From Myxococcota bacterium (GTDB lineage Bacteria; Myxococcota_C; UBA6777), in NCBI GenBank assembly GCA_023150835.1, contig JAKLKB010000115.1, positions 1 through 22,555 on the forward strand: DNA of 22,555 nucleotides, written 5' to 3'. The position numbers and the translations under genes were made by a program. How positions within the stretch are numbered: the first letter of the stretch is position 1; each line of letters begins with the position of its first letter. This document shows positions 3,326 through 22,532 of the stretch, in pieces. The notes under the pieces are model-generated. The model had not been told where the DNA came from. It made no database searches and was given only the letters and a program-made list of their open reading frames with translations.

Positions 3326-5158
3326 ATGACGCACCAGCCCGAAAAGCCAAGACCCCACCACCCCAACAAGCAAACCCTCATGCACAACACGCCACTGGTC
3401 GTCAACCCGCTGGCGCTTGTCGGCGAAGACACCCAAGCCGCCAACGCCCGCAAAGCCGCTATCAAGCAGGCCAAACAAACCATCGCAGGCGGTGCGCTCC
3501 TGCTCCCGCTCGATCCGAGCCTCTTGATCGGCCAAGATGCCCACCCATCCGCCCCCTCCGACACCGTTAACGAAACCCTCTCACCCCACGAAGAAGCCCA
3601 GATCTCCGCACTCTTCCAAGATATCTTCCTCGAAGAAACACCTCCCCACCCAAACCACCGCGCCGCCCGACTCGGCACACGCGCTTGGGAAGAACCCGCG
3701 CTCCAACCCCCCTCCTCTTTTCTTCCCCCGCACGAAGACACCGCTCACACTCACCTCGCAGACTTTGCCCCGATCCCACCCATGATCCACGCAACCACAT
3801 TCGACGAACCCATCCCACCCACGATCCGCACAACCACACTCGACGAACCCATCCCGCCCATGATCCACGCAACCACACTCGACGAACCCATCTCATCCTC
3901 CGTCAAATCCCCCGAAACACGTGGCCTCTCCGAGGCAAGCCTGAAAGCGCCCTCGCCTTCGCAAGTCACCAACGAAGCGATGTTGATCGCGAAACGCACA
4001 ACCGTTCTTCCCGAAGTCGATCTACGCGCAGGAAGCCCCACACTCATCCAATCCAACAAAGATCGCTACGAATTCAAAAAAACACTCGGCGAAGGAGCCG
4101 TCGGCGAAGTCGAACTCGCACGCGACAACGATATCCACCGCATGGTCGCCATCAAACGCCTCAAAAAATCACTGCACTCTCCTTCGACTCTGCTGCGTTT
4201 TGCCGAAGAGATCCGCACCGTCGGCAGCCTCGAACACCCCAACATTATCCCGATCCACGATGTAGGTGTCGATGAAGAAGGCCGATATTACTTTGTGATG
4301 AAGCATATCCAAGGCGTAACGATCGAACACATCATCGAACGCCTCCAAGCAGGAGACGCCGAATACCACGCGAAATATAGCTTTGAATATCGCGCCCGCA
4401 TCTGTATGGAGATCTTGCGTGCGATGCAATTTGCCCATAGTCACGGGGTGATCCACCGCGATCTCAAACCCGCCAATATCATGGTCGGCCCCTTTGGTGA
4501 GGTCGTCGTCATGGACTGGGGGATCGCCAAGCGCATCCGCCAAATCACCCCACCCAACGCACAGATCCAAGGCTTCCTCGATCAACTCGATCACGATATC
4601 GCCCAACGCCTCGAAGCCGACGGCGGCTCCCGCGAACGACTGTTCCAAACCCGCAACGACACCCTGCTCGGCACCCCCATGTATATGTCCCCCGAACAAG
4701 CCCTCGGACACAACGACAAACTCGACGAACGCAGCGATATCTACAGCCTGTTTGTCGTCTTCTATGAATTTCTTACCCTGCACCATTATCTCGAAGGGGC
4801 CGCATCCCTCGAAGAACTCTTGCGTGGTATCCTCCAACGCGAACCCAAAAATCCCCTGCTCAATCGCCACACCACACAACCCCCCATCCCTGCGGACCTC
4901 CACTGGTTCCTGCTGTGGGGATTTCAAAAAGATCCCGCCAAACGGCCCCAAACCATCGCCGAGATCATCCACCGCCTCCAACGCATCGAAGACGGCTACG
5001 CGCATATCCAATGCCCCGTCACACTCAACAAGCGCGCTGCCACAGGCTTTGCCCACTTTATCAACCGACACCCCGTCCTCAGCACTCTTTCCACTCTGTT
5101 CGCCGCAACCCTGATGCTCGGTGGATGCGCCTTTTTCGTCCTCCTGTTTCTGCCCTAA
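3326..5158 (+). CDS. Tail-anchored Hanks-type Ser/Thr protein kinase with extended N-terminal region
   Basis: 610 residues. The first 246 are low-complexity and include three 13-residue repeats (149-187). The kinase domain (about 247-560) shows the Gly loop GEGAVGEV (255-262), VAIK with the ATP-binding K277, catalytic HRDLKPAN with D379, and metal-binding D397 in DWG instead of DFG. These are followed by GTPMYMSPEQ and ERSDIYSL. All catalytic residues are present, so it should be active. The stretch from D397 to the SPE glutamate is about 61 residues, longer than usual. A single hydrophobic segment (about 588-608) ends the protein with almost nothing after it, so it should be tail-anchored with the kinase in the cytosol; no extracellular sensor is present. 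The start at 3326 has AAGGA eight bases upstream; an ATG at 3122 lies in an atypical stretch without such a site. Confidence 0.93.
   Translation: MTHQPEKPRPHHPNKQTLMHNTPLVVNPLALVGEDTQAANARKAAIKQAKQTIAGGALLLPLDPSLLIGQDAHPSAPSDTVNETLSPHEEAQISALFQDIFLEETPPHPNHRAARLGTRAWEEPALQPPSSFLPPHEDTAHTHLADFAPIPPMIHATTFDEPIPPTIRTTTLDEPIPPMIHATTLDEPISSSVKSPETRGLSEASLKAPSPSQVTNEAMLIAKRTTVLPEVDLRAGSPTLIQSNKDRYEFKKTLGEGAVGEVELARDNDIHRMVAIKRLKKSLHSPSTLLRFAEEIRTVGSLEHPNIIPIHDVGVDEEGRYYFVMKHIQGVTIEHIIERLQAGDAEYHAKYSFEYRARICMEILRAMQFAHSHGVIHRDLKPANIMVGPFGEVVVMDWGIAKRIRQITPPNAQIQGFLDQLDHDIAQRLEADGGSRERLFQTRNDTLLGTPMYMSPEQALGHNDKLDERSDIYSLFVVFYEFLTLHHYLEGAASLEELLRGILQREPKNPLLNRHTTQPPIPADLHWFLLWGFQKDPAKRPQTIAEIIHRLQRIEDGYAHIQCPVTLNKRAATGFAHFINRHPVLSTLSTLFAATLMLGGCAFFVLLFLP
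3770..3886 (+). repeat. Three in-frame 39-bp tandem repeats inside the kinase gene
   Basis: Three consecutive 39-bp units encode PIPPMIHATTFDE, PIPPTIRTTTLDE and PIPPMIHATTLDE (residues 149-187 of the kinase). Spacing is exact and frame is kept. Each unit contains a T-T-(F/L)-D core. Confidence 0.95.
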
Positions 5159-5348: not shown

Positions 5349-5936
5349 ATGAAGAAGATGCTCTTCACAGCGTCCATTCTGGGCGCGCTCGCCTTCGCCT
5401 TCCTCTATTCCCCCAACGATGCCGACGCGCAGCGTTATCGCCGTCGTCGCTGTGCTCAACTCGCCAATCAAGTCAGCGTCTGGTCAGTAGAGCGCAACCG
5501 CCACATCAATCGCTGGAACCGCTGCAAAGCCGTCCTCGGCTGGTCCCACCCTCGTTGTCAGCGTATCCGCAGCACCGTCATCGCATGGCAGCAAAACGTC
5601 AACGTCGCACGCAACAACTACAGTGCGTGGGGTTGCCGCTTTGCATGGGGTACATGGAATGACCCTTGGGCCCCCGCTCCCGCTCCTGCCCCCGGCGCGT
5701 ATGCCAACCAACAATGCGCAAAGCTCGGTGTTCGTGTCAACCGTTGGCGCGGCATCCGCAACGACTACATCAACCGCTGGAACAACTGCCAAGCTGCCCT
5801 CGGCTGGAGACATCCCCGTTGTCGCCACCTTCGCCGCAAAGTCAACAATTGGTACGCAAACGTCAACGTTGCGCGTGGCAACTACCGCGATTGGGGCTGC
5901 CGCTTCCGTTGGGGTAACTGGAACAACCCTTGGTGA
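5349..5936 (+). CDS. Secreted Trp/Arg-rich protein with two tandem four-cysteine repeats
   Basis: 195 residues, function not recognised. Residues 1-27 form a Sec signal peptide (basic MKKM, hydrophobic core, cleavage after ADA before Q28), so the product should be periplasmic or released. The mature part is two homologous units of about 73 residues joined by a short APAPAPAPG linker. Each unit has four cysteines and shared blocks: INRWN(R/N)C, LGW-x-HPRC, NVNVAR-x-NY and WGCRF-x-WG-x-WN-x-PW. Arg, Trp and Asn are unusually abundant and acidic residues are few, so the mature protein is strongly basic. Eight cysteines allow two disulfides per unit. AGGAG at 5336-5340, eight bases before the ATG, fixes the start. 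The gene is monocistronic and is followed by a terminator. Such a fold could bind glycan or nucleic acid, but this is speculation. Confidence 0.85.
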   Translation: MKKMLFTASILGALAFAFLYSPNDADAQRYRRRRCAQLANQVSVWSVERNRHINRWNRCKAVLGWSHPRCQRIRSTVIAWQQNVNVARNNYSAWGCRFAWGTWNDPWAPAPAPAPGAYANQQCAKLGVRVNRWRGIRNDYINRWNNCQAALGWRHPRCRHLRRKVNNWYANVNVARGNYRDWGCRFRWGNWNNPW

Positions 5937-5956
5937 TCCTCTCGCGCTCACCGGTG

Positions 5957-6011
5957 TTCGGATGATCCATCTTCGGATGATCCATGTTCGGATGATCCAT
6001 GTTCGGATGAT
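5957..6011. repeat. 15-bp tandem repeat, 3.7 copies, in the 3' untranslated region
   Basis: The unit TTCGGATGATCCAT plus C or G recurs at 5957, 5972, 5987 and partially at 6002. Each unit contains the small palindrome GGAT-G-ATCC. It starts about 20 bases after the stop of the secreted repeat protein and ends before the terminator. It has no coding frame of its own that looks real. Confidence 0.9.
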
Positions 6012-6145: not shown

Positions 6146-6242
6146 CGAGTTTAAGGGCGTCCACAAGCGCTTTGTGTTAGAAGATCGCGTTGGGGGGTAA
6201 GGGGGGGAGCGAGTTTAAGGGCGTCCACAAGCGCTTTGTGTT
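6146..6242. repeat. 33-bp exact direct repeat duplicating a gene 3' end
   Basis: The 33 bases at 6146-6178 recur exactly at 6210-6242. The right copy holds the last eight codons (TQSACGRP) and the TAA of the Cys-repeat lipoprotein gene on the minus strand. The left copy lies just downstream of that stop. The 31 bases between them are G-rich on the plus strand, with runs of six and seven G. This looks like a relic of a tandem duplication or unequal exchange at the gene's end. Confidence 0.9.
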
Positions 6243-8545
6243 CCATCAGGACGGACACAAGGGGCGTTCGGCTGGCAAAAGGGTTTGGAGCAACACAAGA
6301 CGGGGGGTTGGACGTAGACGCACACTCCATTTTGGCAGTCTTCACCTTGGTTGCAATCACAAGCATTCAGGCAGCTTTGTTGGGAACAGTAGGCCAACTG
6401 ACCTTGGGCATCTTCGCAGCGATTCCCGGGAGGACAGAAGGGCTTGTCGCAACAATAGATCCGCGATCCAGAAGTGACGATCGTGCAGCGCCCGCGCACG
6501 CAAGATTGCCCTTGGTTGGGACAATCGCACGCACTTTGACAGGACGCTGTGGGGCAAAGGGCGGCTTGGTTTTGAGCGTTAAAACAAGCCTGCCCTTGAG
6601 GACATCCGACTTTGTCGCAACAATAGACCGCAGGGAAAGTGCCGATACATTGGCCGCGATAACAATCGTCGCCTTGGGGACAGTCACACGGCGAAGCGCA
6701 GGTCGATTGGGGGGTGCAAGTCGCCCACTGATTGCTTGCGTTGCGACAACGCTCGCCTTGGGGACAGCCCGATTGACCGCAACAATAGACGGGCGGACTG
6801 GTCGTCAAACAGATACCGCTGCGGCAATCTTCGCCTTGCGCGCAATCACACGGAGATTGGCAACGACGCGCTGCGCACTGCCCGACCTGACCGTTGGCTT
6901 GGTAGCAGAATTGATCCAACGGACAACCTGCATTGGAGCAACAATACGCCCCTCCAAGCCCGGGATCTTGATTGCAAAGGCCATTGATACAAGTCGCTCC
7001 TTGGGGACAATCGCAAAGCGTGTTGCAGGGTGCAGGGCAAAAGCCCGATTGCATCGTCTTGTTTTCGCAGCCTTGCCCTTGGGGACAGCCTTCTTTGTCA
7101 CAACAAAAAGCCGGTTGTGCGCTGGTTTTGCATTGCCCGCCTGTACAAGCCTCGCCTTGAACACAATCGCAAGCACTCCGACAAGGACGCGGTCGTTGCG
7201 GGCAGATCGCAACAGAGCCTGTCTTGTCTTTGCACGTCGCTGTGGGTGGACAGCCTTGGGCGTTGTCACAACAATACATCGGCGCGGGGCCGCGAAAGCA
7301 CTTGCCGTTGGAACAGTCGTAGCCTTCGGGACAATCACACGGCGAAACGCACAGCAACGGACACTTCCCCGCAGCACTCGCCGAAGTGTAGCACGTCGCA
7401 CCACCCGGACAGCCCGGGTTCTCACAACAATATCCGGGAAAAGAAGACTTAAAGCACTTGCCCTCGACACAGTACTGACCCTGTGGACAATCGCACAACG
7501 TCGCGCAGCTTTGGGGTGGAGCGCACAGCCCTGTCCCCAAACCACAAAGCCCGACATCTTGCGTTGTTTTCGTCACGCAGACGCCACCGATACACCGTCC
7601 ATCGGACTTTTCGCACAGCTTGCCGATCTGTTGACAAGGGCGGGTCGGGCAGTCCTGATCTTTTTGACAAGCAGGCCCCTCAACACACTTCCCTGCGTCC
7701 TTGTCGCATCCGCCTTTTTTGGGGGTGCGTTGGACATCGCACTTTGCATCGACGCAGCGCGCCAAGACTTCGGCGCATCCTTGCGGGCCTTGCTCACAAC
7801 CCGAGATGCCGCAATCGCGATCTTTGATACAAGCAGGCGCTGGCGCACACTTTCCGTCCGAATCATCGGGCGTTTTGCAAGCCGCTCCCGCAGGACAACC
7901 CGCCTTCGAACAACAATACACGGGCGACTCTCCCCCCACACAACGGCCCTGCACACACGCCTCGCCTTGTGGACAATCGCAGGTCTTTTGACACGCAGGC
8001 TTTTCTCCGCAAACGCCCAAGCTACCGTCACTTCGCTGACACGCTCCTTGTTTACACTCCTCTGGACGCGAACAACACACCACCTTTTGGCCTAGCTTCG
8101 AGCACTGCCCACCTTCGCAAGAAAGCCCCACCGCACAATCACACACGCTCTTGCAAACACGCCCAGCCTCACCGCATATTCCGCTGCCTGTTCGCGGAGA
8201 GCGACACGCCTCCCCCACCACGCAGCCCGCCTTATCGCAACAATACACCGCCACCGCCACTTGGTTGCATACGCCGCCCTCACACCCTTCCCCTTGCTTG
8301 CAATCACAAGGATGCGTACACGCCCTCGGCTCCCCAGCCACCCCATCTACGGGGCTTTCGTTCGCCCCCTCGCTCACACCTTCGATGCCGTCTTTGGAAA
8401 CCCCACTGTCTCCGTCGCGTTCTTCTCCCACACCTTCCGCGCTAGACTCCGTGGGGGGGCCTCCGTCACAACGGCATCCCACCGCAACCACCGCCCACAC
8501 ACCGATCACAAACAACCAACCCCGCAAACGCCAAACCCGCTCCAT
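6215..8545 (-). CDS. Large lipoprotein with eleven 10-cysteine repeats
   Basis: 776 residues, no enzymatic domain recognised. Residues 1-24 form a lipoprotein signal ending AVAVGC, with C24 lipidated. An acidic Gly/Ser/Glu linker follows to about residue 74. The rest is built of repeats of about 48-55 residues with the pattern C-x3-CDC-x5-C-x4-C-x7-CC-x4-C-x5-C-x7/8-C, typified by CDCPQG, YCC and GCPQG. Three repeats (about 75-237) precede a divergent Cys-rich interlude (about 238-345), and eight more follow to the C-terminus. The near-invariant ten cysteines per unit point to a rod of small disulfide-bonded modules at the cell surface (inference). The start at 8545 is well supported by AAGGAGG six bases upstream; an ATG at 8596 is rejected. 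It is the last gene of a probable three-gene minus-strand operon. Confidence 0.92.
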   Translation of the reverse strand: MERVWRLRGWLFVIGVWAVVAVGCRCDGGPPTESSAEGVGEERDGDSGVSKDGIEGVSEGANESPVDGVAGEPRACTHPCDCKQGEGCEGGVCNQVAVAVYCCDKAGCVVGEACRSPRTGSGICGEAGRVCKSVCDCAVGLSCEGGQCSKLGQKVVCCSRPEECKQGACQRSDGSLGVCGEKPACQKTCDCPQGEACVQGRCVGGESPVYCCSKAGCPAGAACKTPDDSDGKCAPAPACIKDRDCGISGCEQGPQGCAEVLARCVDAKCDVQRTPKKGGCDKDAGKCVEGPACQKDQDCPTRPCQQIGKLCEKSDGRCIGGVCVTKTTQDVGLCGLGTGLCAPPQSCATLCDCPQGQYCVEGKCFKSSFPGYCCENPGCPGGATCYTSASAAGKCPLLCVSPCDCPEGYDCSNGKCFRGPAPMYCCDNAQGCPPTATCKDKTGSVAICPQRPRPCRSACDCVQGEACTGGQCKTSAQPAFCCDKEGCPQGQGCENKTMQSGFCPAPCNTLCDCPQGATCINGLCNQDPGLGGAYCCSNAGCPLDQFCYQANGQVGQCAARRCQSPCDCAQGEDCRSGICLTTSPPVYCCGQSGCPQGERCRNASNQWATCTPQSTCASPCDCPQGDDCYRGQCIGTFPAVYCCDKVGCPQGQACFNAQNQAALCPTASCQSACDCPNQGQSCVRGRCTIVTSGSRIYCCDKPFCPPGNRCEDAQGQLAYCSQQSCLNACDCNQGEDCQNGVCVYVQPPVLCCSKPFCQPNAPCVRPDGTQSACGRP

Positions 8546-8671
8546 CTCGATCCTCCTTTCGTGCGCAACTGCGCCACAAAACACAAGGATCTCCAAGGTC
8601 TAGAATCCATCCCCCTTTTATCGTCTCCCCTGATCTCCATCGAAGTGATGCAGCCGACAAAAAGACGCGCC

Positions 8672-9091
8672 TCACTTTCCAAAGCCCAATCCACCGCCTC
8701 GAAAGCCACCGCCGCCCCTCGCACGATACTGCACCAGCCGCCCCCCTCGTTGATAGGCTTGCCACCTGACCAGATTCGCCCGTTGCTGCGAGCGATACGA
8801 AGCATAGCCGGGATGAAACCAGATCCAGTTGCTGTAGCGGTATCGATCCTGATAACAATAACCCTTTTGCAGATCACAAACCGCATCTGGCGGACAGTCC
8901 GCCAGATCCTTGCGCGCCCAACCACATCGCTGCGTTAAAAAGCACGACCCCTGCAAACATACGCCCCCCCCGCATTCTGCGTCGCTGACACAGACACGCA
9001 CAAAGTCCGAACGTATCCCAAGCCACAGCCCAAAACCAAATGGGATCACCAAGATCGCAACCACCCAAAAACCAAACGTATCTTTTTGCAT
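8672..9091 (-). CDS. Small membrane-anchored Cys-rich protein
   Basis: 139 residues, family not recognised. One N-terminal hydrophobic segment (about 6-26, FGFWVVAILVIPFGFGLW) acts as an uncleaved anchor or signal. An exported Cys-rich module (about 33-80) follows, with CVSDAECGGGVCLQGSC and DCPPDAVCDLQKGYC. These resemble the C-x-C-x-G-x-C knots in the neighbouring lipoproteins. The C-terminal 55 residues are Tyr/Trp/Arg-rich and end in a Gly-rich tail (GGGGFRGGGLGFGK). A GGAGG-type binding site precedes the ATG. The start lies nine bases after the stop of the five-TM protein gene, which strongly suggests co-transcription and possibly translational coupling. The next gene follows after 126 bases. 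Confidence 0.82.
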   Translation of the reverse strand: MQKDTFGFWVVAILVIPFGFGLWLGIRSDFVRVCVSDAECGGGVCLQGSCFLTQRCGWARKDLADCPPDAVCDLQKGYCYQDRYRYSNWIWFHPGYASYRSQQRANLVRWQAYQRGGRLVQYRARGGGGFRGGGLGFGK

Positions 9092-9100
9092 CTCCCCTCC

Positions 9101-9958
9101 TCAATCCAAAGCAAACAGCAGCACAACAAACCAAGAACTAAAAAACACCAAACACCACCGACAGATCAAGAAGTTCAGCGCTTCGGTATGTTGGCGGCGA
9201 CGATACCAATCGTCGTCTTGGCGAAGAAACAGCCACATTGCTCCCCAAAACAACACCCCCACCCACAACATCACACAATGCACCGCAAAGATCTCATAAA
9301 AGTACGGTCCATCGGGCGCAGCGTACGCGATCGTCCGCTCAAAAGACCACCCAAGTCCAAGGATCAAGATCATCCACTCCACAAATCCCCGCAACGTCGC
9401 CTTGCGCTCGCGTTGCTCGACTTGCTCTTGGTGCATCTCTCCCTCTGCTTCGGGAACTGGCGCTTCTGCAAACGAAAACACCAACCGAAACCACTTGGAG
9501 ATCCGCGTCGGTTCGCCCCGAAACTCTTCATCCTCCACAACAGGCACCACATACGCATCCAAGACCGACGGGCCAAAACCAAAGATCCCGTACAGCCGCG
9601 AATTATACACCAAAGCACCCACCAAAAGACTCAACGCAAAAAGCTGGATCTTGAGATTCAGATCCCACGCACCAAAAAGCAAAAACCCAGACCACAACCC
9701 CCCTCCCAACAAGCCACACACCGCCCACTTCAACGGGATCTTCTCCTCGTCATACGTCGCAGGTTCATGCGTCACTTTAAAACTGAAATCTCCCGGAAGC
9801 GAACCCTCCTGTAGATCGCGCAGTCCGCCTTTTCCACCGCCTTGCAAATCGTGCAGGCCGCCTTTTGCATTGCCTTGCAGATCGCGTGGATCGTTGTTTC
9901 TGCGATCTTGGTGTGGCTTGTCTTCTTCGATCGGAAATCCCAAAGGATCTTTTCGCAT
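9101..9958 (-). CDS. Five-TM membrane protein with Gly/Lys repeat N-terminus
   Basis: 285 residues, no known family recognised. The soluble N-terminal part (1-75) contains a short repeat, DLQGNAKGGLH, DLQGGGKGGLR, DLQEGS (26-52). Predicted membrane segments are at about 78-98, 103-120, 191-207, 221-245 and 263-283. A charged loop between the second and third holds several Glu/Gln residues. There are no obvious catalytic motifs. The start at 9958 is chosen because the N-terminus there is ordinary and AAGGG lies upstream; extension to 10213 would run through a REP-like palindrome and is unlikely. This is the promoter-proximal gene of a probable operon with the two Cys-rich exported proteins. 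A role in their export, anchoring or assembly is possible but unproven. Confidence 0.8.
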   Translation of the reverse strand: MRKDPLGFPIEEDKPHQDRRNNDPRDLQGNAKGGLHDLQGGGKGGLRDLQEGSLPGDFSFKVTHEPATYDEEKIPLKWAVCGLLGGGLWSGFLLFGAWDLNLKIQLFALSLLVGALVYNSRLYGIFGFGPSVLDAYVVPVVEDEEFRGEPTRISKWFRLVFSFAEAPVPEAEGEMHQEQVEQRERKATLRGFVEWMILILGLGWSFERTIAYAAPDGPYFYEIFAVHCVMLWVGVLFWGAMWLFLRQDDDWYRRRQHTEALNFLICRWCLVFFSSWFVVLLFALD

Positions 9959-10298: not shown

Positions 10299-11561
10299 AT
10301 GGATCGTTTTGTCTTTTCAATGAACTCGGAACCTCCGAACCTATCGTTCCATCCGCCACAAGGATCGAAGCGCCTCACGCAACAGGGTTGGTTTGGTTTT
10401 CGGACAGTTCTGTGGCTTAGTTGCTTTGGCTGGCTCAACATCATGGGCTGCCCGCCAACTCCGACAGTCGAATGCGATGCCAAGACAGCTTGCCCGCAAG
10501 GAAAGCGTTGTGTCGAAGGGGCGTGTCTTTGTGTCGCAGGATACACCGATTGCAACAAGGCTTGCGTGGATCTTCAAACAGATACCGCACATTGTGGTGC
10601 TTGTGGTGGCGTGTGCAAAACAAGCGAAACCTGCCGTCAAGGTGTTTGTGTGCCGATCTGTACCCCGCCGCAAGACGACTGTGGCGGGCGCTGTGTGGAT
10701 CGCAGCAACGACGCCGCACACTGCGGAAGTTGCAACAACGCCTGCGCTCCAACAACGCGATGCCAGCGCAGTTTGTGTGTATCGCCCTGCCCTGCGGAGC
10801 AGCTCTTTTGCGGAGGTTTGTGCATCGATCCCAAAAGTCGCCGTACACACTGCGGAACGTGCGGCAATACCTGTGAGATCGGAAAGTCTTGTGCAAATGG
10901 GGATTGTGTGGCGGCGTGTCCGCCTGACGCAACCGACTTGTGCGAAGGTGGATGTGTGGATCTTCAGTCCAACCCGCTGCATTGTGGCGGATGCAACAAA
11001 GCCTGCCCCAGCGGTCTTCTTTGCAACAAAGGCCGTTGTGTTTGTCCATCCGACCGTTCGGAGTGCGGGGGCAACTGCATCGATCCCCAAGCAGACGCCC
11101 AACACTGCGGCAGATGCAACAGCGCCTGCCCATCAGGACAATTCTGTGCGGCGGGTGTGTGTGTGGCGTCTTGCCCGAGTGCCTCATCTACAAACTGTTC
11201 GGGCGGATGCTTCGACCTCCAAAGTGCGAACGCACATTGCGGGATATGCGGAAATGCTTGCACAGCAGGACAAGTCTGTATCGCGGGACGTTGTAGCTGT
11301 CCGCCCCAAACGACCCTATGCAACGGCCTTTGCGTCGATCTCCAACACGATGTACTGCATTGTGGTTTATGCCAAAATCGCTGTGCGGGTGGGAATGTTT
11401 GTGCAGCGGGCCGTTGTGTGGCGAATTGCCCCCAAGACACCGCCTCCGCTTGTTTGGGCGGATGCTTCGATCTGCTCAAAACAGACCGACATTGTGGCGC
11501 ATGTCACAACGCTTGCCCTCGTGACGCAACATGCCAAAATGGTCGTTGTATCGCCCCTTAA
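10299..11561 (+). CDS. Lipoprotein with eight six-to-eight-Cys repeats of myxobacterial type
   Basis: 420 residues. A long basic/polar N-terminus (1-33) precedes a hydrophobic segment that ends NIMGC, so C51 is a candidate lipidation site; Met at -2 is unusual. After a short CPQGKRC module there are eight repeats of about 42 residues. They have the core G-x-C-(V/I/F)-D-(L/P/R)-x6-HCG-x-C-x3-C-x5-C-x4-C, exemplified by GGCVDLQ, HCGACG and CPSGQFC. This repeat type is common in hypothetical secreted proteins of myxobacteria (recalled, not searched) and differs from that of the divergent 776-aa lipoprotein. The start at 10299 has AGGA with a six-base spacer. An upstream extension of the frame to 9402 is antisense to another gene and is rejected. 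Role: probably surface-exposed, disulfide-rich and adhesive or structural (inference). Confidence 0.9.
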   Translation: MDRFVFSMNSEPPNLSFHPPQGSKRLTQQGWFGFRTVLWLSCFGWLNIMGCPPTPTVECDAKTACPQGKRCVEGACLCVAGYTDCNKACVDLQTDTAHCGACGGVCKTSETCRQGVCVPICTPPQDDCGGRCVDRSNDAAHCGSCNNACAPTTRCQRSLCVSPCPAEQLFCGGLCIDPKSRRTHCGTCGNTCEIGKSCANGDCVAACPPDATDLCEGGCVDLQSNPLHCGGCNKACPSGLLCNKGRCVCPSDRSECGGNCIDPQADAQHCGRCNSACPSGQFCAAGVCVASCPSASSTNCSGGCFDLQSANAHCGICGNACTAGQVCIAGRCSCPPQTTLCNGLCVDLQHDVLHCGLCQNRCAGGNVCAAGRCVANCPQDTASACLGGCFDLLKTDRHCGACHNACPRDATCQNGRCIAP

Positions 11562-15948: not shown

Positions 15949-16076
15949 ACGTCCGCTCCCAAAAAGGCATGACGAAAGAGGCCCTCTGGATCAAAATGCT
16001 TTGCGAGATCTCGAAATTTTACAACGGATCACATCGACCCTTTGTGTACGCTCCTCATGGCTATCGTATCCGAGCT

Positions 16077-17309
16077 TCACTCCGAATCTTTGGGGCTGTT
16101 GTCCGTATCTTGAAGATGGATCTGTTCACGCAAAAGGGCGCATTGTTCGCGCAAGACGGTGTGCATCGCCCCATCTTCGGCCTGTTGAATCCACGCCATA
16201 ATCCCCGAAACAAACAACTCCTTGATAAAAGCATAAGAAAAACCATCCGTTTGACTTGCGAGCTCTGTCTGCGCCGAAAGATCGACACGCAACGCAGGTT
16301 CAAGCCGATCATTCCAACGGCCAATGTACCGCAATCGCTCGTTGTATCCGGGAATATCAAAAAGATACTTGCGATCAAAGCGACTTGGACGCTTGACCAA
16401 AGCCACATCCAAACGCTCGATATGGTTGGTCGTTGCCAAAGCCAAGATCCCGTGATTGCTTGAAAATCCATCCAACTCGTTCAAGAAAAAAGAGCGATTT
16501 TTATCGTTGAGCAGCGAATCAAGATCCTCAAAGATCAGCACACACGGCGAGACTTCACGCGCTCGCTCAAAAACACGACGCATATTTTCGTGTGCCGTAC
16601 AACAACCTGATTCAAAGCTTTTGACGTAGAGACGGGGCTTTTGGACAGTGTTAAGAATCGCTTTGATCGCGTGGGTTTTGCCATTCCCGGGAGGACCATA
16701 CAACAAAACACCTCGCTTCCACGGGATCTTGTAATGTTCGTATTGTTCTTGTGCATGAAAAAACCCCCAAAGATCGCGCTGCAACGCCTCTGCAAGGCTC
16801 GGAGGTAGGACGATATCATCAAAACGAACGTCTTGTGTGGCTTGGTACAACTCCTCATCCTTGAACCAAGAACCCTCATGAAACACAAGAATCTCCGCAC
16901 GAACCTCTTCGTTCCACGCACACACCACGCGCACAAAATCGTCCGCGATCGCTTCGCTCGGAGCAATCAAAAACACCCGATCTTCGGTGCTGTACCCCGC
17001 ACTCCATTGAAACGCAACCAACTCCATCGAGTGGCCCTCCCACACCACACGGTGCCAAGCATTCTGCGTCGAATACGTCAACTGGCCTTTGTGGTGGCCG
17101 TCGTTGGGGATCTGTTGGTGGCTCTCTGCGATCGGCACATACGAACAACGCCCGTCTTCTGCAAAGGGCTGCACAGCAAAAGACCAAAGGTTGATCTCAC
17201 GCACATAACGCGGCGCTGCATAAGCTGAAAGCCGCCGCCCTGCCTCATACGACAGAACGTTCGCAGGCAACGAAAGGCTCTCATACAAAAACGTTTTTTG
17301 ATTCAGCAT
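16077..17309 (-). CDS. AAA ATPase of the BCS1/FtsH-like (classical AAA) type
   Basis: 410 residues if begun at the ATG at 17309. The N-terminal domain (1-165) is unrecognised and has no membrane segment. The AAA module (about 195-345) contains Walker A GPPGNGKT (205-212), Walker B VLIFEDLDSL (257-266), sensor-1 asparagine in ATTNHIERLD (N295), and the second region of homology RPSRFDRKY with candidate arginine fingers R310 and R313. This order is that of classical AAA unfoldases and BCS1-like remodelers, so ATP-driven protein remodelling is expected; no protease domain is attached. Start choice is weak. No clear ribosome binding site precedes 17309. An in-frame ATG at 17450 would add 47 atypical residues and lies at or before the likely transcription start. 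The gene is divergent from the outer-membrane gene at 17703. Confidence 0.87.
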   Translation of the reverse strand: MLNQKTFLYESLSLPANVLSYEAGRRLSAYAAPRYVREINLWSFAVQPFAEDGRCSYVPIAESHQQIPNDGHHKGQLTYSTQNAWHRVVWEGHSMELVAFQWSAGYSTEDRVFLIAPSEAIADDFVRVVCAWNEEVRAEILVFHEGSWFKDEELYQATQDVRFDDIVLPPSLAEALQRDLWGFFHAQEQYEHYKIPWKRGVLLYGPPGNGKTHAIKAILNTVQKPRLYVKSFESGCCTAHENMRRVFERAREVSPCVLIFEDLDSLLNDKNRSFFLNELDGFSSNHGILALATTNHIERLDVALVKRPSRFDRKYLFDIPGYNERLRYIGRWNDRLEPALRVDLSAQTELASQTDGFSYAFIKELFVSGIMAWIQQAEDGAMHTVLREQCALLREQIHLQDTDNSPKDSE

Positions 17310-17419
17310 TTTTTGTTTTGGGGTATCCGCTTTGGGATCGTTGAAAGAAAAAAAGCGCAAGCAACGCGCACACAACGCCCCGCTCCCCAAAAAGTTCGCT
17401 TCTGATCTGCGTTCAATCG

Positions 17420-17475
17420 TTGTACGGCAAACAAAATCAAATAAGATCATTTACTTATAAAATTATTCCCGCGAT
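17420..17475. promoter_or_regulatory. AT-rich divergent promoter region
   Basis: This is the only strongly AT-rich patch between the AAA ATPase (-) and barrel (+) genes. The minus strand reads TATAAG at 17459-17454, a fair -10, and the plus strand has TATAAA at 17456-17461. Neither has a convincing -35. If the minus-strand element is used, transcription starts near 17447, which favours the 17309 start of the ATPase. Confidence 0.35.
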
Positions 17476-17702: not shown

Positions 17703-18746
17703 ATGTCTCTCGCTCTTTTCAGGCTCCAACGACACCACCTCCTCGCGGCTGTCTTCTGGATCCTCCCCTCCGCTGTCTTCGCACAAGCCCTCAACCCCGA
17801 TGATCCCGCCTCCAACAACCTCCGCAAATCCACCCAAGCCACCGTCAAACCCTACAACCTCTCCGCTGCGATCACTTCCTCGCTTGGAACGGGATCATTT
17901 GCTGCCTCCTCTTACAAAAACCACTACTTCGCCCAATCACTCGACCTCTCCGCTTCTGTGCGCGCATGGAAATACTTCTCCTTCGTCGCCCTCTGGGGCT
18001 TTGATGTCGAATACACCCAACCCGACAACGAATCAGGACGCCGCTTTTTCCCACGCGACGTCACCCTCGCCGCCGCTTGGGCCACGAGCCTTGGCAAACA
18101 TGTAAGCACCCGCATCTCCCTCGGAATGCAGCTCCCCACCTCTCTCGCTTCACAAGTCGCCACTCGTTACCTGCGCACCACCGTCGCAGGCACGCTCAAC
18201 GGTAGCTTCGGACCTGTTTCTGTTAGCTATGCTATCGGACTCAGCAAAGACTTCAACCGCTACACCAGCCCCGTCTTCGATCAAAGCCAAGCCGATCTCC
18301 CTTCTGTGCTGCTTCGCCAAAGCACCAGAGAAAATATCGATCTTTCCATCGGACTTGTCCCCATGCCGGGTACGCGCAATATCTCTTGGCTCGTACGAAA
18401 CTCCTTCGCCCTCAACTTCACCCTCTACAAGGGACTTTCTCTTGGCTTCGCCTTCTCCATCTTCAACGCCTTCAAATATCCCTCCCCTGACGACGCCTAC
18501 CGCGCCACCATCCCCACCGTCAACGGCAACGTCAAAGCCGATCTCGTCGGTCGCCTCGACTTCACGATGGGCGATATCTCCCTCAACTGGGCGGCCTTGC
18601 CCTACCTCCAGTTCGCCCTCGGAGCCATCTCCATGCAGATGCCTCTCACCGACAAAAACAACGGCCTACGCATCCCCTTTCTCAACGTATTCACCGCCAA
18701 CGACAACGTCACCACCTTCTACCTTCGCATCGTTGGCTCTTACTAA
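17703..18746 (+). CDS. Outer-membrane beta-barrel protein (hypothetical)
   Basis: 347 residues. A signal peptide with cleavage after AVFA (27) is followed by a mature chain rich in alternating polar/hydrophobic strands with aromatic ends. Examples are YNLSAAITSSLG, LDLSASVRAWKYFSFVALWG, VSVSYAIGLS, FALNFTLYKGLSLGFAFSIF and ISLNWAALPYLQFALGAISM. The chain ends in FYLRIVGSY, a closing strand with a terminal aromatic. This pattern fits a 12- to 16-strand outer-membrane barrel, but the precise family and cargo are not recognisable. AAGGA eight bases upstream supports the start. The metalloprotease gene follows after 78 bases on the same strand with no terminator seen, so the two are probably cotranscribed and may act together at the outer membrane. 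Confidence 0.82.
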   Translation: MSLALFRLQRHHLLAAVFWILPSAVFAQALNPDDPASNNLRKSTQATVKPYNLSAAITSSLGTGSFAASSYKNHYFAQSLDLSASVRAWKYFSFVALWGFDVEYTQPDNESGRRFFPRDVTLAAAWATSLGKHVSTRISLGMQLPTSLASQVATRYLRTTVAGTLNGSFGPVSVSYAIGLSKDFNRYTSPVFDQSQADLPSVLLRQSTRENIDLSIGLVPMPGTRNISWLVRNSFALNFTLYKGLSLGFAFSIFNAFKYPSPDDAYRATIPTVNGNVKADLVGRLDFTMGDISLNWAALPYLQFALGAISMQMPLTDKNNGLRIPFLNVFTANDNVTTFYLRIVGSY

Positions 18747-18824: not shown

Positions 18825-21800
18825 ATGAAACGAAAAACCCTCCAATGGCTCTTGCTCCTGCCCTTTGTCGTGGGCGGGATCATCGCAAGCGTCGGCTGCG
18901 CCCAAGATCTCCCCGATATCGACCGCACACAACCACGCGCCCTCAAAAAATCCATCTTCCGACCCACCAACGAAGACGGCACACCTCGCGAATGGTACTT
19001 CCGACAAACCGTGATCGAAGTCCCCTACGGCACAGGCGCAAGCTTTGTTGGCGAAGAAAGCCAAACCGAAAAGATCGTCTGGAAGATTACCGAACGCTTT
19101 CTTTATGCTTATCGCTCAAGAGAATATGTCCTTAACACAGACAAACCCAGCCAACGCCCCGGCACCGAATACGAAGGCACGCCGATCGCCGCCTTTCGCA
19201 TCGAAAGCCACTTTGATATCCAACGCAGTTATAACCCCGCCACAGGCGAACAAAACAACGTCATCATCGAAAACACCATGGATCGGCCTTGGGATCAACG
19301 CGAACATTTTCGCGTGGACTTTGGACAAAACCTGATCGCAGATTTTGCTTTTGTCGCGTCCAACGTCTCCCAACAACCTGTGAGCTATTACATCCCCGAA
19401 AACGAAGTCAACAACAAAGACCGCGCCAAGATCGGCGAAGATTACGTTGATATCGTTCAAAAACTCACCATCCAACCCGAAGTTCACCCTGAATTGTCGG
19501 CCTATTATGGCCGACCGGTCCCGACTTGTTGGTTGTATTCCGAGATCACACGCGACTGCATGGGCCAAACCATCAAAGTACGCGCCTCTTTCAAGCGTGT
19601 CGCCCGCACCGATTACCAAGCCAAACCCTATGACGACAAACGTATGGCCAAATTCGGCTACTTCCGCCAAATCAGCTACACTTACGACCGTGGGCGCGGC
19701 ATCCTCGAAAACAACACCAACCGCACCATGAACCGCTGGCCGATCTGGCGCGATGAAGCACAATGCGCCAAGCCCAACACTCGCCTCTCTCATGCCGACT
19801 GTAAGGTCCGACAATTCGCCTACCACCTCAACGACCAATATCCCGCTGAACTCAAGGCCGAAGCCTCCGAAGTAATCCGCCAATGGAACCAATTCTTCCG
19901 TGAAGCCGTACAGATCCGCTCTGGCAAAGACCAAGGCGATATCTTTGTCCTCTGCCTCAACAACCCCATCCAAGAAGGCGACCCCGCCATCTGTGGAAAG
20001 CCCGGTGACAACCCCCAGATCGGCGATATCCGTTATAGTTTCCTCTACTGGGTCAACCGCCCACACCGCGCATCTCCCCTTGGCTACGGGCCTTCCACCG
20101 TCGATCCCCTCACAGGCGAAGTCGTCGCCGCAAACGCCTACATCTACGGCGGCGCACTCGATAGCTACACCGCTTACGCCACAGATATCGTTCGCTTGAT
20201 CAACGGCGACGCCAAAACCGAAGATATCGGCCTTGGAAAAGACCTTCAAAACTACCTCGCCAATCAACAAAAACTCGGTGTACACGGCCATATCCATTGG
20301 CATGGCGGAATGAAGCCTGCCCTCGACAAGCACTCCCAAAACATCCGTGAACGCATGGCCCTGCTCAAAGAGCAAGTCCGTACCGGCCAAGCCAGCTACG
20401 ATTGGGTCGCCGAAAAACTCAAACGCCTCGAAGATAGCCCCTCTTCCGCAGGGGTGATCGGTGGCGAGATCTTCCAAGCCTTCAATCTACAACTCTTTTC
20501 CCCAAGCGGTCAGATCACCCCCGAGATCCAAAAACTCTACGGACCCCAACGCATCGCCACCCGCCAATTCTTCGATTGGTCCCGTCAGCGCATGGAACGG
20601 CTCTCGACACGCAACGTCATGATGACCGACTTTGTCGACGACGGCGTCCTCGCACGAGCTCTCAAAATGAAAGGGGCCTTTGCTGTCAACGGGAAAATCG
20701 ATTACGAAAAAGTCTATGCACAACTTCGCAAAGAGATCTTCCTCGCCGTCACTCTCCACGAATTCGGCCACAACGTCGGCCTCCGCCACAACTTCTCTGC
20801 CTCCGCTGACGCCCTCAACTATCACGACAAATACTGGGAACTCCGCGCCAAAACCATCCCCGAAGGTGAAAACGCCCCCCTTCCTTTTTATCGCTACGCT
20901 GAAAAAGACGCCAAACTGCTCAACGACGCCATCCAAAAAGGTCTCCACGAATACCAATACAGCTCGATCATGGACTACGGTTCGGGCTTTGCGAGCGATC
21001 TACACGGCCTTGGACGCTATGATCGCGCCGCCATCCTCTACGGATACGCCGATGCTGTCGAAGTCTTCAAAAAAGGCACCACCCAACTCTCCCGCGCCGA
21101 TGCCCAAGCCCAACTCGCCCCCGATACTTGGCACTACACCCAACTCCCCCGTGTGATCGCTGGAAACAAACCCGTCAACGAACAGATCGATGCTCTCAAA
21201 CAACGCGAGATCGCAACTCTCGATGAACTCGCCAAAGACAACGCCTTGATCGAGATCCCTTATCGCTTTTGCAGCGACGAAGTCCACCAAGGACAATCCG
21301 ACTGCAATCGCTTTGACCAAGGGGCCGATCCTTACGAGCGCGTCCGTGATACCACCCAACGCTACTTTAGCTATTACATCTTCAACGCCTACAAACGCGG
21401 TCGCTTGACCTTTGGCGTCGATGTCGGCTCCTACATCAGCCGCATCTATGACCGCTACTTTATGCCCATCGCCTTTCAATACAAACACTTCGTCAACGAC
21501 GGTTTCATTGCACAACGCTTTGAAAAAGCCTGCAACGGCAACTGGTACCAAGACCCACGTTGCGGTGAATCCGGCTTTATCGCATCCATCGCTGCACTCA
21601 ACTTCTTCTCTCACGTCATGCAAACCCCCGACTCTGGATGTTACAAACGCACGCAAGTCGGCACGCGCAACGTCTTTACCCATCAATCCAACAACGCTTG
21701 TACAAGCAAAGGCCCTGAATTCCTCGACGTCCCCTTTGGTGTCGGACGCCCGATGCTCGGCGCTTATGACCGCGACACCTACGGCTACGAATTCTACTGG

Positions 21801-22532
21801 AAGCCCGTTAGCCTCGGTGCTTGGTGGGACAAATACCTCGCTGCGATGGCGCTTGGTGACCCCTACACCCGCTTTATCGGGGTTGATAGCACCGCCGATG
21901 CCCGAAGCTATCTGATCAACTTCACTGCTCTCTACGGAACCTACGTCAACAACATCCTCGGCGGCTTCCTCGCCGAACGCCCCGAAGCCTACGCACCGAT
22001 GCTCGGCGCGGATGGCAAGATATCCTTGCGTGAACCCATCCGACTCGGCGGCAGCAACGACTTGATCGATCCTGCCCCTGTCTACAACTTCACCACCCCC
22101 CTCGATCCCAACGAACAATACACCGCACGCCTTCTTGTCGGATTCATCGGCGCAGTCTACTTCTCCCGCGAAACCGACGACCAACGCTTCAACGAAGCCA
22201 TGAAGATCGCTGTACGCGGACGCGCCGAATCTCCCGACGTTCCCGAAGCCATCCGCCAAGATCCCAAACAGTACGTCGAGATCGTCGAACCCGGCAGCAA
22301 CCGCATCTACTACGCTGTCCGCGCTGAAAACCGTGGCCCCACCTTCTCTGATGCACCCAAGTTCTTCTCTGCCGGCTACGAGCTGCTCAAAAACCTCAAG
22401 GATCAGTACTACGAAAATGACGGCTCCACCCTCAAGCCCGGTGTCCGAAAAGAAACCGTCATGAACGAATTCCACTACATCAACGTCATCCTCGGCTGGC
22501 TCCACGCTGGCGAATACAACAACCCCCGCTAA
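18825..22532 (+). CDS. Very large metzincin-type zinc metalloprotease lipoprotein
   Basis: 1235 residues. A lipoprotein signal ends ASVGC with C25 lipidated, so the enzyme should be anchored on the periplasmic or outer face. The catalytic centre is HEFGHNVGLRH (H645-H655), an exact HExxHxxGxxH: H645, H649 and H655 would bind zinc and E646 would be the base. A Met-turn SSIMDYGS with M716 follows about 60 residues later, as metzincins require. The long flanking regions (about 600 residues before and 500 after) were not recognised in detail; the architecture resembles large zinc-dependent metalloproteases carrying DUF5117/DUF4953-like regions (recalled). Scattered Cys pairs suggest disulfides. 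GAGGA four bases before the ATG gives the start. The gene follows the barrel gene by 78 bases. The stop TAA is inside the window, so the gene is complete. Substrate unknown. Confidence 0.92.
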   Translation: MKRKTLQWLLLLPFVVGGIIASVGCAQDLPDIDRTQPRALKKSIFRPTNEDGTPREWYFRQTVIEVPYGTGASFVGEESQTEKIVWKITERFLYAYRSREYVLNTDKPSQRPGTEYEGTPIAAFRIESHFDIQRSYNPATGEQNNVIIENTMDRPWDQREHFRVDFGQNLIADFAFVASNVSQQPVSYYIPENEVNNKDRAKIGEDYVDIVQKLTIQPEVHPELSAYYGRPVPTCWLYSEITRDCMGQTIKVRASFKRVARTDYQAKPYDDKRMAKFGYFRQISYTYDRGRGILENNTNRTMNRWPIWRDEAQCAKPNTRLSHADCKVRQFAYHLNDQYPAELKAEASEVIRQWNQFFREAVQIRSGKDQGDIFVLCLNNPIQEGDPAICGKPGDNPQIGDIRYSFLYWVNRPHRASPLGYGPSTVDPLTGEVVAANAYIYGGALDSYTAYATDIVRLINGDAKTEDIGLGKDLQNYLANQQKLGVHGHIHWHGGMKPALDKHSQNIRERMALLKEQVRTGQASYDWVAEKLKRLEDSPSSAGVIGGEIFQAFNLQLFSPSGQITPEIQKLYGPQRIATRQFFDWSRQRMERLSTRNVMMTDFVDDGVLARALKMKGAFAVNGKIDYEKVYAQLRKEIFLAVTLHEFGHNVGLRHNFSASADALNYHDKYWELRAKTIPEGENAPLPFYRYAEKDAKLLNDAIQKGLHEYQYSSIMDYGSGFASDLHGLGRYDRAAILYGYADAVEVFKKGTTQLSRADAQAQLAPDTWHYTQLPRVIAGNKPVNEQIDALKQREIATLDELAKDNALIEIPYRFCSDEVHQGQSDCNRFDQGADPYERVRDTTQRYFSYYIFNAYKRGRLTFGVDVGSYISRIYDRYFMPIAFQYKHFVNDGFIAQRFEKACNGNWYQDPRCGESGFIASIAALNFFSHVMQTPDSGCYKRTQVGTRNVFTHQSNNACTSKGPEFLDVPFGVGRPMLGAYDRDTYGYEFYWKPVSLGAWWDKYLAAMALGDPYTRFIGVDSTADARSYLINFTALYGTYVNNILGGFLAERPEAYAPMLGADGKISLREPIRLGGSNDLIDPAPVYNFTTPLDPNEQYTARLLVGFIGAVYFSRETDDQRFNEAMKIAVRGRAESPDVPEAIRQDPKQYVEIVEPGSNRIYYAVRAENRGPTFSDAPKFFSAGYELLKNLKDQYYENDGSTLKPGVRKETVMNEFHYINVILGWLHAGEYNNPR

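Follow-up and report, generated by a model that had tools for sequence, protein, structure and literature searches.

Three adjacent genes that encode a five-TM membrane protein, a small anchored Cys protein, and a Cys-repeat lipoprotein raise the question of whether they form a dedicated module of the cell envelope, as a preliminary description of this DNA had proposed. We analyzed the whole stretch of 22,555 nucleotides in which they lie (hereafter, the window), which is contig JAKLKB010000115.1 of the Myxococcota bacterium assembly GCA_023150835.1. On balance, we favor a reading in which the lipoprotein acts as a surface rod or stalk stapled by disulfides, belongs to a family of this lineage, and is encoded beside two young genus-specific membrane orphans.

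Gene layout and coding constraint

The three minus-strand ORFs at 6215-9958 and the 9-base spacing between the first two genes were confirmed (Table 1). The length of the lipoprotein was counted from the ATG behind a strong AAAGGAGG site. In a second genome of the same genus (G001, the sister genome), which shares approximately 93-95% DNA identity across the three genes, these genes are present in the same order and on the same strand, and the 9-base gap with its ribosome-binding site is identical. The dN/dS ratios against this genome were 0.17 for the five-TM protein, 0.055 for the small protein, and 0.083 for the lipoprotein, and neighboring genes are likewise under purifying selection. The ratio was 2.2 for an antisense ORF of 619 codons that overlaps the lipoprotein gene. 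Therefore, the three ORFs are genuine genes and not chance reading frames.

Table 1. Positions of the genes and intergenic segments discussed in the text
Feature	Position	Strand	Description
Small secreted protein	5349-5936		Trp/Arg/Asn-rich, two long internal repeats
Cys-repeat lipoprotein gene	6215-8545	minus	ORF, 776 aa, 128 Cys
Spacer, small gene/lipoprotein gene	8546-8671	minus	126 bases
Small anchored Cys protein gene	8672-9091	minus	ORF, 139 aa
Gap, five-TM/small gene	9092-9100	minus	9 bases, contains the ribosome-binding site of the small gene (GAGGAGGGGAG)
Five-TM membrane protein gene	9101-9958	minus	ORF, 285 aa, ATG start
Facing lipoprotein gene, MXAN_6577/STIG1 type	10299-11561	plus	420 aa; NF041328 and PF04885 matches
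AAA-type ATPase gene	16077-17450		Noted region 16016-17404
Exported-protein gene	17703-18746		No assigned function
Metzincin gene	18825-22532		Lipoprotein-like, motif HEFGHNVGLRH

The tight three-gene operon of the preliminary description holds only in part. Since the lipoprotein gene begins 126 bases past the small gene, tight linkage is limited to the five-TM/small pair. One explanation for this layout is that the three genes are chance neighbors: the five-TM and small genes would make up an orphan operon whose envelope function is unrelated, and a separate promoter within the 126-base spacer would serve the lipoprotein gene. The length of the gap and the occurrence of the lipoprotein alone in relatives (see below) are consistent with this explanation. 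However, no consensus terminator was found in the gap, and no promoter by a sigma-70-type consensus, from which host-specific promoters may differ, and we consider chance neighbors to be unlikely. RNA folding of the spacer did not exceed that of shuffled sequences (z -1.1). In the reading that we favor, the two upstream genes (five-TM and small) are translationally close and may share the transcript of the lipoprotein gene. At the other end of the lipoprotein gene, 32 bases around the stop codon (6211-6242) are duplicated downstream at 6147-6178; exact copies are absent from the sister genome.

The Cys-repeat lipoprotein and its family

The lipoprotein has an N-terminal signal with an AVGC lipobox at residues 21-24 that ends in Cys, as in bacterial lipoproteins, and acylation is predicted from this sequence. 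An acidic/Ser linker of approximately 50 aa follows, and then three ten-Cys repeats, two divergent eight-Cys units, and eight further ten-Cys repeats. The preliminary description had counted 11 repeats, which is correct for ten-Cys units of the CDC...CC type (52-56 aa), but it overlooked the pair of eight-Cys units that separates repeats 3 and 4. Each of the 13 units has an even number of Cys, and the total is 11 x 10 + 2 x 8 + 2 = 128 in 776 residues. This abundance could also suggest a metal- or redox-buffering envelope protein instead of a stalk. However, the even Cys number per unit, the conserved CC and CDC spacing, and the hairpins of the structural model fit paired disulfides in an oxidizing compartment, and we regard buffering as very unlikely.

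Each unit forms two short hairpins in a structural model of the four C-terminal repeats (pLDDT 81), whose confidence in the inter-repeat geometry is low (pTM 0.35). Matches from fold searches were all weak, local, or generically EGF-like. One half-unit resembled squash inhibitor knottins weakly (rmsd 1.2 over 26 residues, Z 2.3); the likeness to knottins (squash trypsin inhibitors and the N-terminal region of Dkk4) is confined to local structure, with Foldseek E values above 0.5 in the PDB.

Among the closest known systems is TraA, an exported myxobacterial protein whose tandem Cys-rich repeats have been proposed to form a rigid stalk (PMC3325183). By analogy with these repeats, a stalk is the most likely role of the present lipoprotein. 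TraA differs in that it carries a PA14 head and a MYXO-CTERM anchor, whereas the lipoprotein of the window has an N-terminal lipid anchor and, in Pfam and NCBIfam scans, respectively, neither PA14 nor MYXO-CTERM; it is thus not a receptor of the TraA type. The repeats also differ: the TraA repeat model TIGR04201 does not match the ten-Cys repeats of 52-56 aa at E 1. NF041328 (MXAN_6577-like) and PF04885 (STIG1), which also describe a Cys-repeat type of lipoprotein, gave no match, and neither did any other Pfam or NCBIfam family at this threshold. We propose that Sec exports the lipoprotein, that Cys24 of the lipobox is acylated, and that the protein then reaches the outer membrane. There, its 13 small disulfide-knotted units would build a stiff rod or stalk on or close to the cell surface. 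We found neither a head nor a ligand-binding domain in the protein, and a stalk without anything to display would be unusual, which counts against this proposal.

The ten-Cys repeats, their conserved spacing, and the orthologues in related genomes define a CDC...CC repeat lipoprotein family. All five genomes of the clade examined encode such proteins. The tree resolved two clades (100/99) with one copy per clade in each of the five genomes, two of these copies being fragments at contig ends; it was built without a remote outgroup because the version that included one was uninformative. The lipoprotein gene of the window has orthologues at G003:C13, G004:C78, and G002:C455 (a fragment) and a paralogue in its own genome (G000:C173). 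The family is probably inherited vertically in this bacterial lineage. In a wider set of proteins, lengths range from 776 to 1281 residues with the same two unit types. Comparison of the last eight repeats with those of the G004:C78 protein gave same-position identities of 37-53% (Cys excluded), and off-diagonal values were mostly 21-41%. This position-by-position conservation indicates an old and fixed array that is not freely expanding, and each of these repeats keeps a conserved identity of its own.

Another phylum was searched with a profile, in a set of 377 genomes chosen via a genome rich in MYXO-CTERM proteins; the repeat was also detected there, in 24 genomes, although some of the matches were weak. 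A literature search found no work on the CDC...CC repeat family. It has no Pfam or NCBIfam model, and building one would put a name to numerous exported proteins.

The five-TM and small proteins

The five-TM protein consists of a soluble N-terminus of approximately 75 aa, TM1-2, a loop of approximately 70 aa, and TM3-5. The charged N-terminus contains 11-aa tandem repeats (DLQGGGKGGLR), encoded by a 33-base tandem repeat at 9815-9886 that shows substitutions between the window and sister genomes. The five segments (residues 76-98, ~100-120, ~190-208, 217-247, and 259-285) were obtained at a permissive hydropathy threshold, and a strict threshold yielded four. The helices of an AlphaFold model, which is too poor for further use (pLDDT 42), agree with the five segments. 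The loop between TM2 and TM3 is Arg/Glu-rich, and the positive-inside pattern suggests an N-in/C-out topology with this loop in the cytoplasm.

The small protein has a predicted N-terminal signal anchor at residues ~4-28, followed by two short Cys motifs, a Tyr/Trp region, and a Gly-rich tail. In line with the earlier description, both Cys-rich proteins are predicted to be exported. A weak match of the small protein to TIGR04201 (Myxo_Cys_RPT) gave 13.0 bits (E 0.086), which is under the cut-off of 25 bits, and the small protein was not assigned to this family. We also compared it with the lipoprotein repeats and rejected an origin as a repeat fragment (best single-pair E 0.07).

The preliminary description had called the membrane protein unrecognized, and it matched no family in Pfam, NCBIfam, PHROGs, or PADLOC. 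Among 60 sampled genomes, relatives were confined to the window genome (G000) and the sister genome; no further relative turned up in the five genomes of the phylum examined, in phylum and domain samples, in plasmids, or in PDB sequences. Across 84,980 species genomes, a pattern scan with a reach limited to close relatives returned a sole match, the MAG KLAP109 'Myxococcota bacterium'. Kinship with a bestrophin-like protein near an MMPL locus was considered and rejected. Within the genomes of the family, the small protein matched in the same two genomes only. Judged from one genus (two genomes) in a family of five genomes, both proteins appear to be genus-specific orphans, and an inner-membrane location is predicted for them.

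Neighborhood and the module question

In a dedicated genus-specific surface-display module, the five-TM and small proteins would assemble in the inner membrane into a complex for folding, exporting, or tethering the lipoprotein. The same orientation and gene order in the two genomes of the genus, purifying selection on all three genes, and the Cys-rich or membrane nature of all products are consistent with such a module. However, two genomes with approximately 94% identity between them are not sufficient to demonstrate selection for linkage, and a 126-base gap precedes the lipoprotein gene. Moreover, five-TM and small neighbors are absent from the orthologous loci of G003 and G004 and from the paralogous loci. 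Wherever the upstream side was readable (including G000:C173; the G002:C455 copy is cut at a contig end and was left out), neither gene was found beside a relative of the lipoprotein. The neighbors are unrelated genes, for example those of a Trp dioxygenase and an M90 peptidase in G004:C78, and of a hydrolase in G003:C13.

Therefore, the three genes are not a conserved new machine, and the proteins of the pair are most likely not needed, as judged from these neighborhoods, for lipoprotein function across the lineage. The gene order predicted for related genomes was kept in the one sister genome, but not beyond the genus in the related genomes compared; in other genera, homologues of the flanking genes occur without the three-gene cluster beside them. 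The independent scattering of homologues that the preliminary description had named as evidence against its own proposal was largely observed. The HEAT gene of the window has diverged homologues in G002 and G003. The exported-protein gene adjoins the metzincin gene, and this pair is kept in G003 and G004.

The other phylum provides the only hint that repeat lipoproteins may accompany a multi-TM protein. In G553 (L092:9261-12963), a five-repeat lipoprotein gene overlaps the end of an MMPL gene, the two being separate genes. In G510 (L090:6337-9969), an MMPL protein and a repeat lipoprotein form a single 1210-residue frame with a lipobox visible at the joint, which is either a fusion or an assembly error. 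These loci share the repeat type and a multi-TM neighbor with the window. However, the membrane protein is of the MMPL/RND type (PF03176), which the five-TM protein does not match. Considering both sides, we find a dedicated module in this genus improbable. It is quite unlikely, as a broader conjecture, that CDC...CC lipoproteins repeatedly recruit a multi-TM inner-membrane partner for delivery or control, with the five-TM/small pair as a new partner type. If a membrane partner were shown to be needed, it would provide a testable route by which uncultured Myxococcota-like bacteria display disulfide-rich lipoproteins on their surface.

The facing Cys-repeat lipoprotein of a different type, also part of the preliminary description, is real. 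Its gene is divergent from the five-TM gene with 340 bases between them, and the product matched NF041328 with 379.6 bits (E 6.7e-115; cut-off of 100 bits) and PF04885 (STIG1) with E 1.1e-43. Since proteins of the MXAN_6577/STIG1 type are greatly expanded in these genomes, with 96 match places in the window genome (241 in G004), its proximity says little about partnership. It is an ordinary protein of this type, which characterizes the lineage, rather than a special partner. In G004:C26 (~484874-493549), an open frame of 12255 codons contains many repeats of the STIG1/MXAN_6577 type, and another of 4414 codons lies nearby.

Elsewhere in the window, the AAA-type ATPase gene has no counterpart in the sister genome, which carries a different DNA segment of approximately 2.7 kb between the same neighbors. 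The small secreted protein (Table 1) matched no family. Short tandem repeats are located at 1-110 (42 bases), 3773-3892 (39 bases, inside the N-terminus of a kinase), and 5955-6011 (15 bases).
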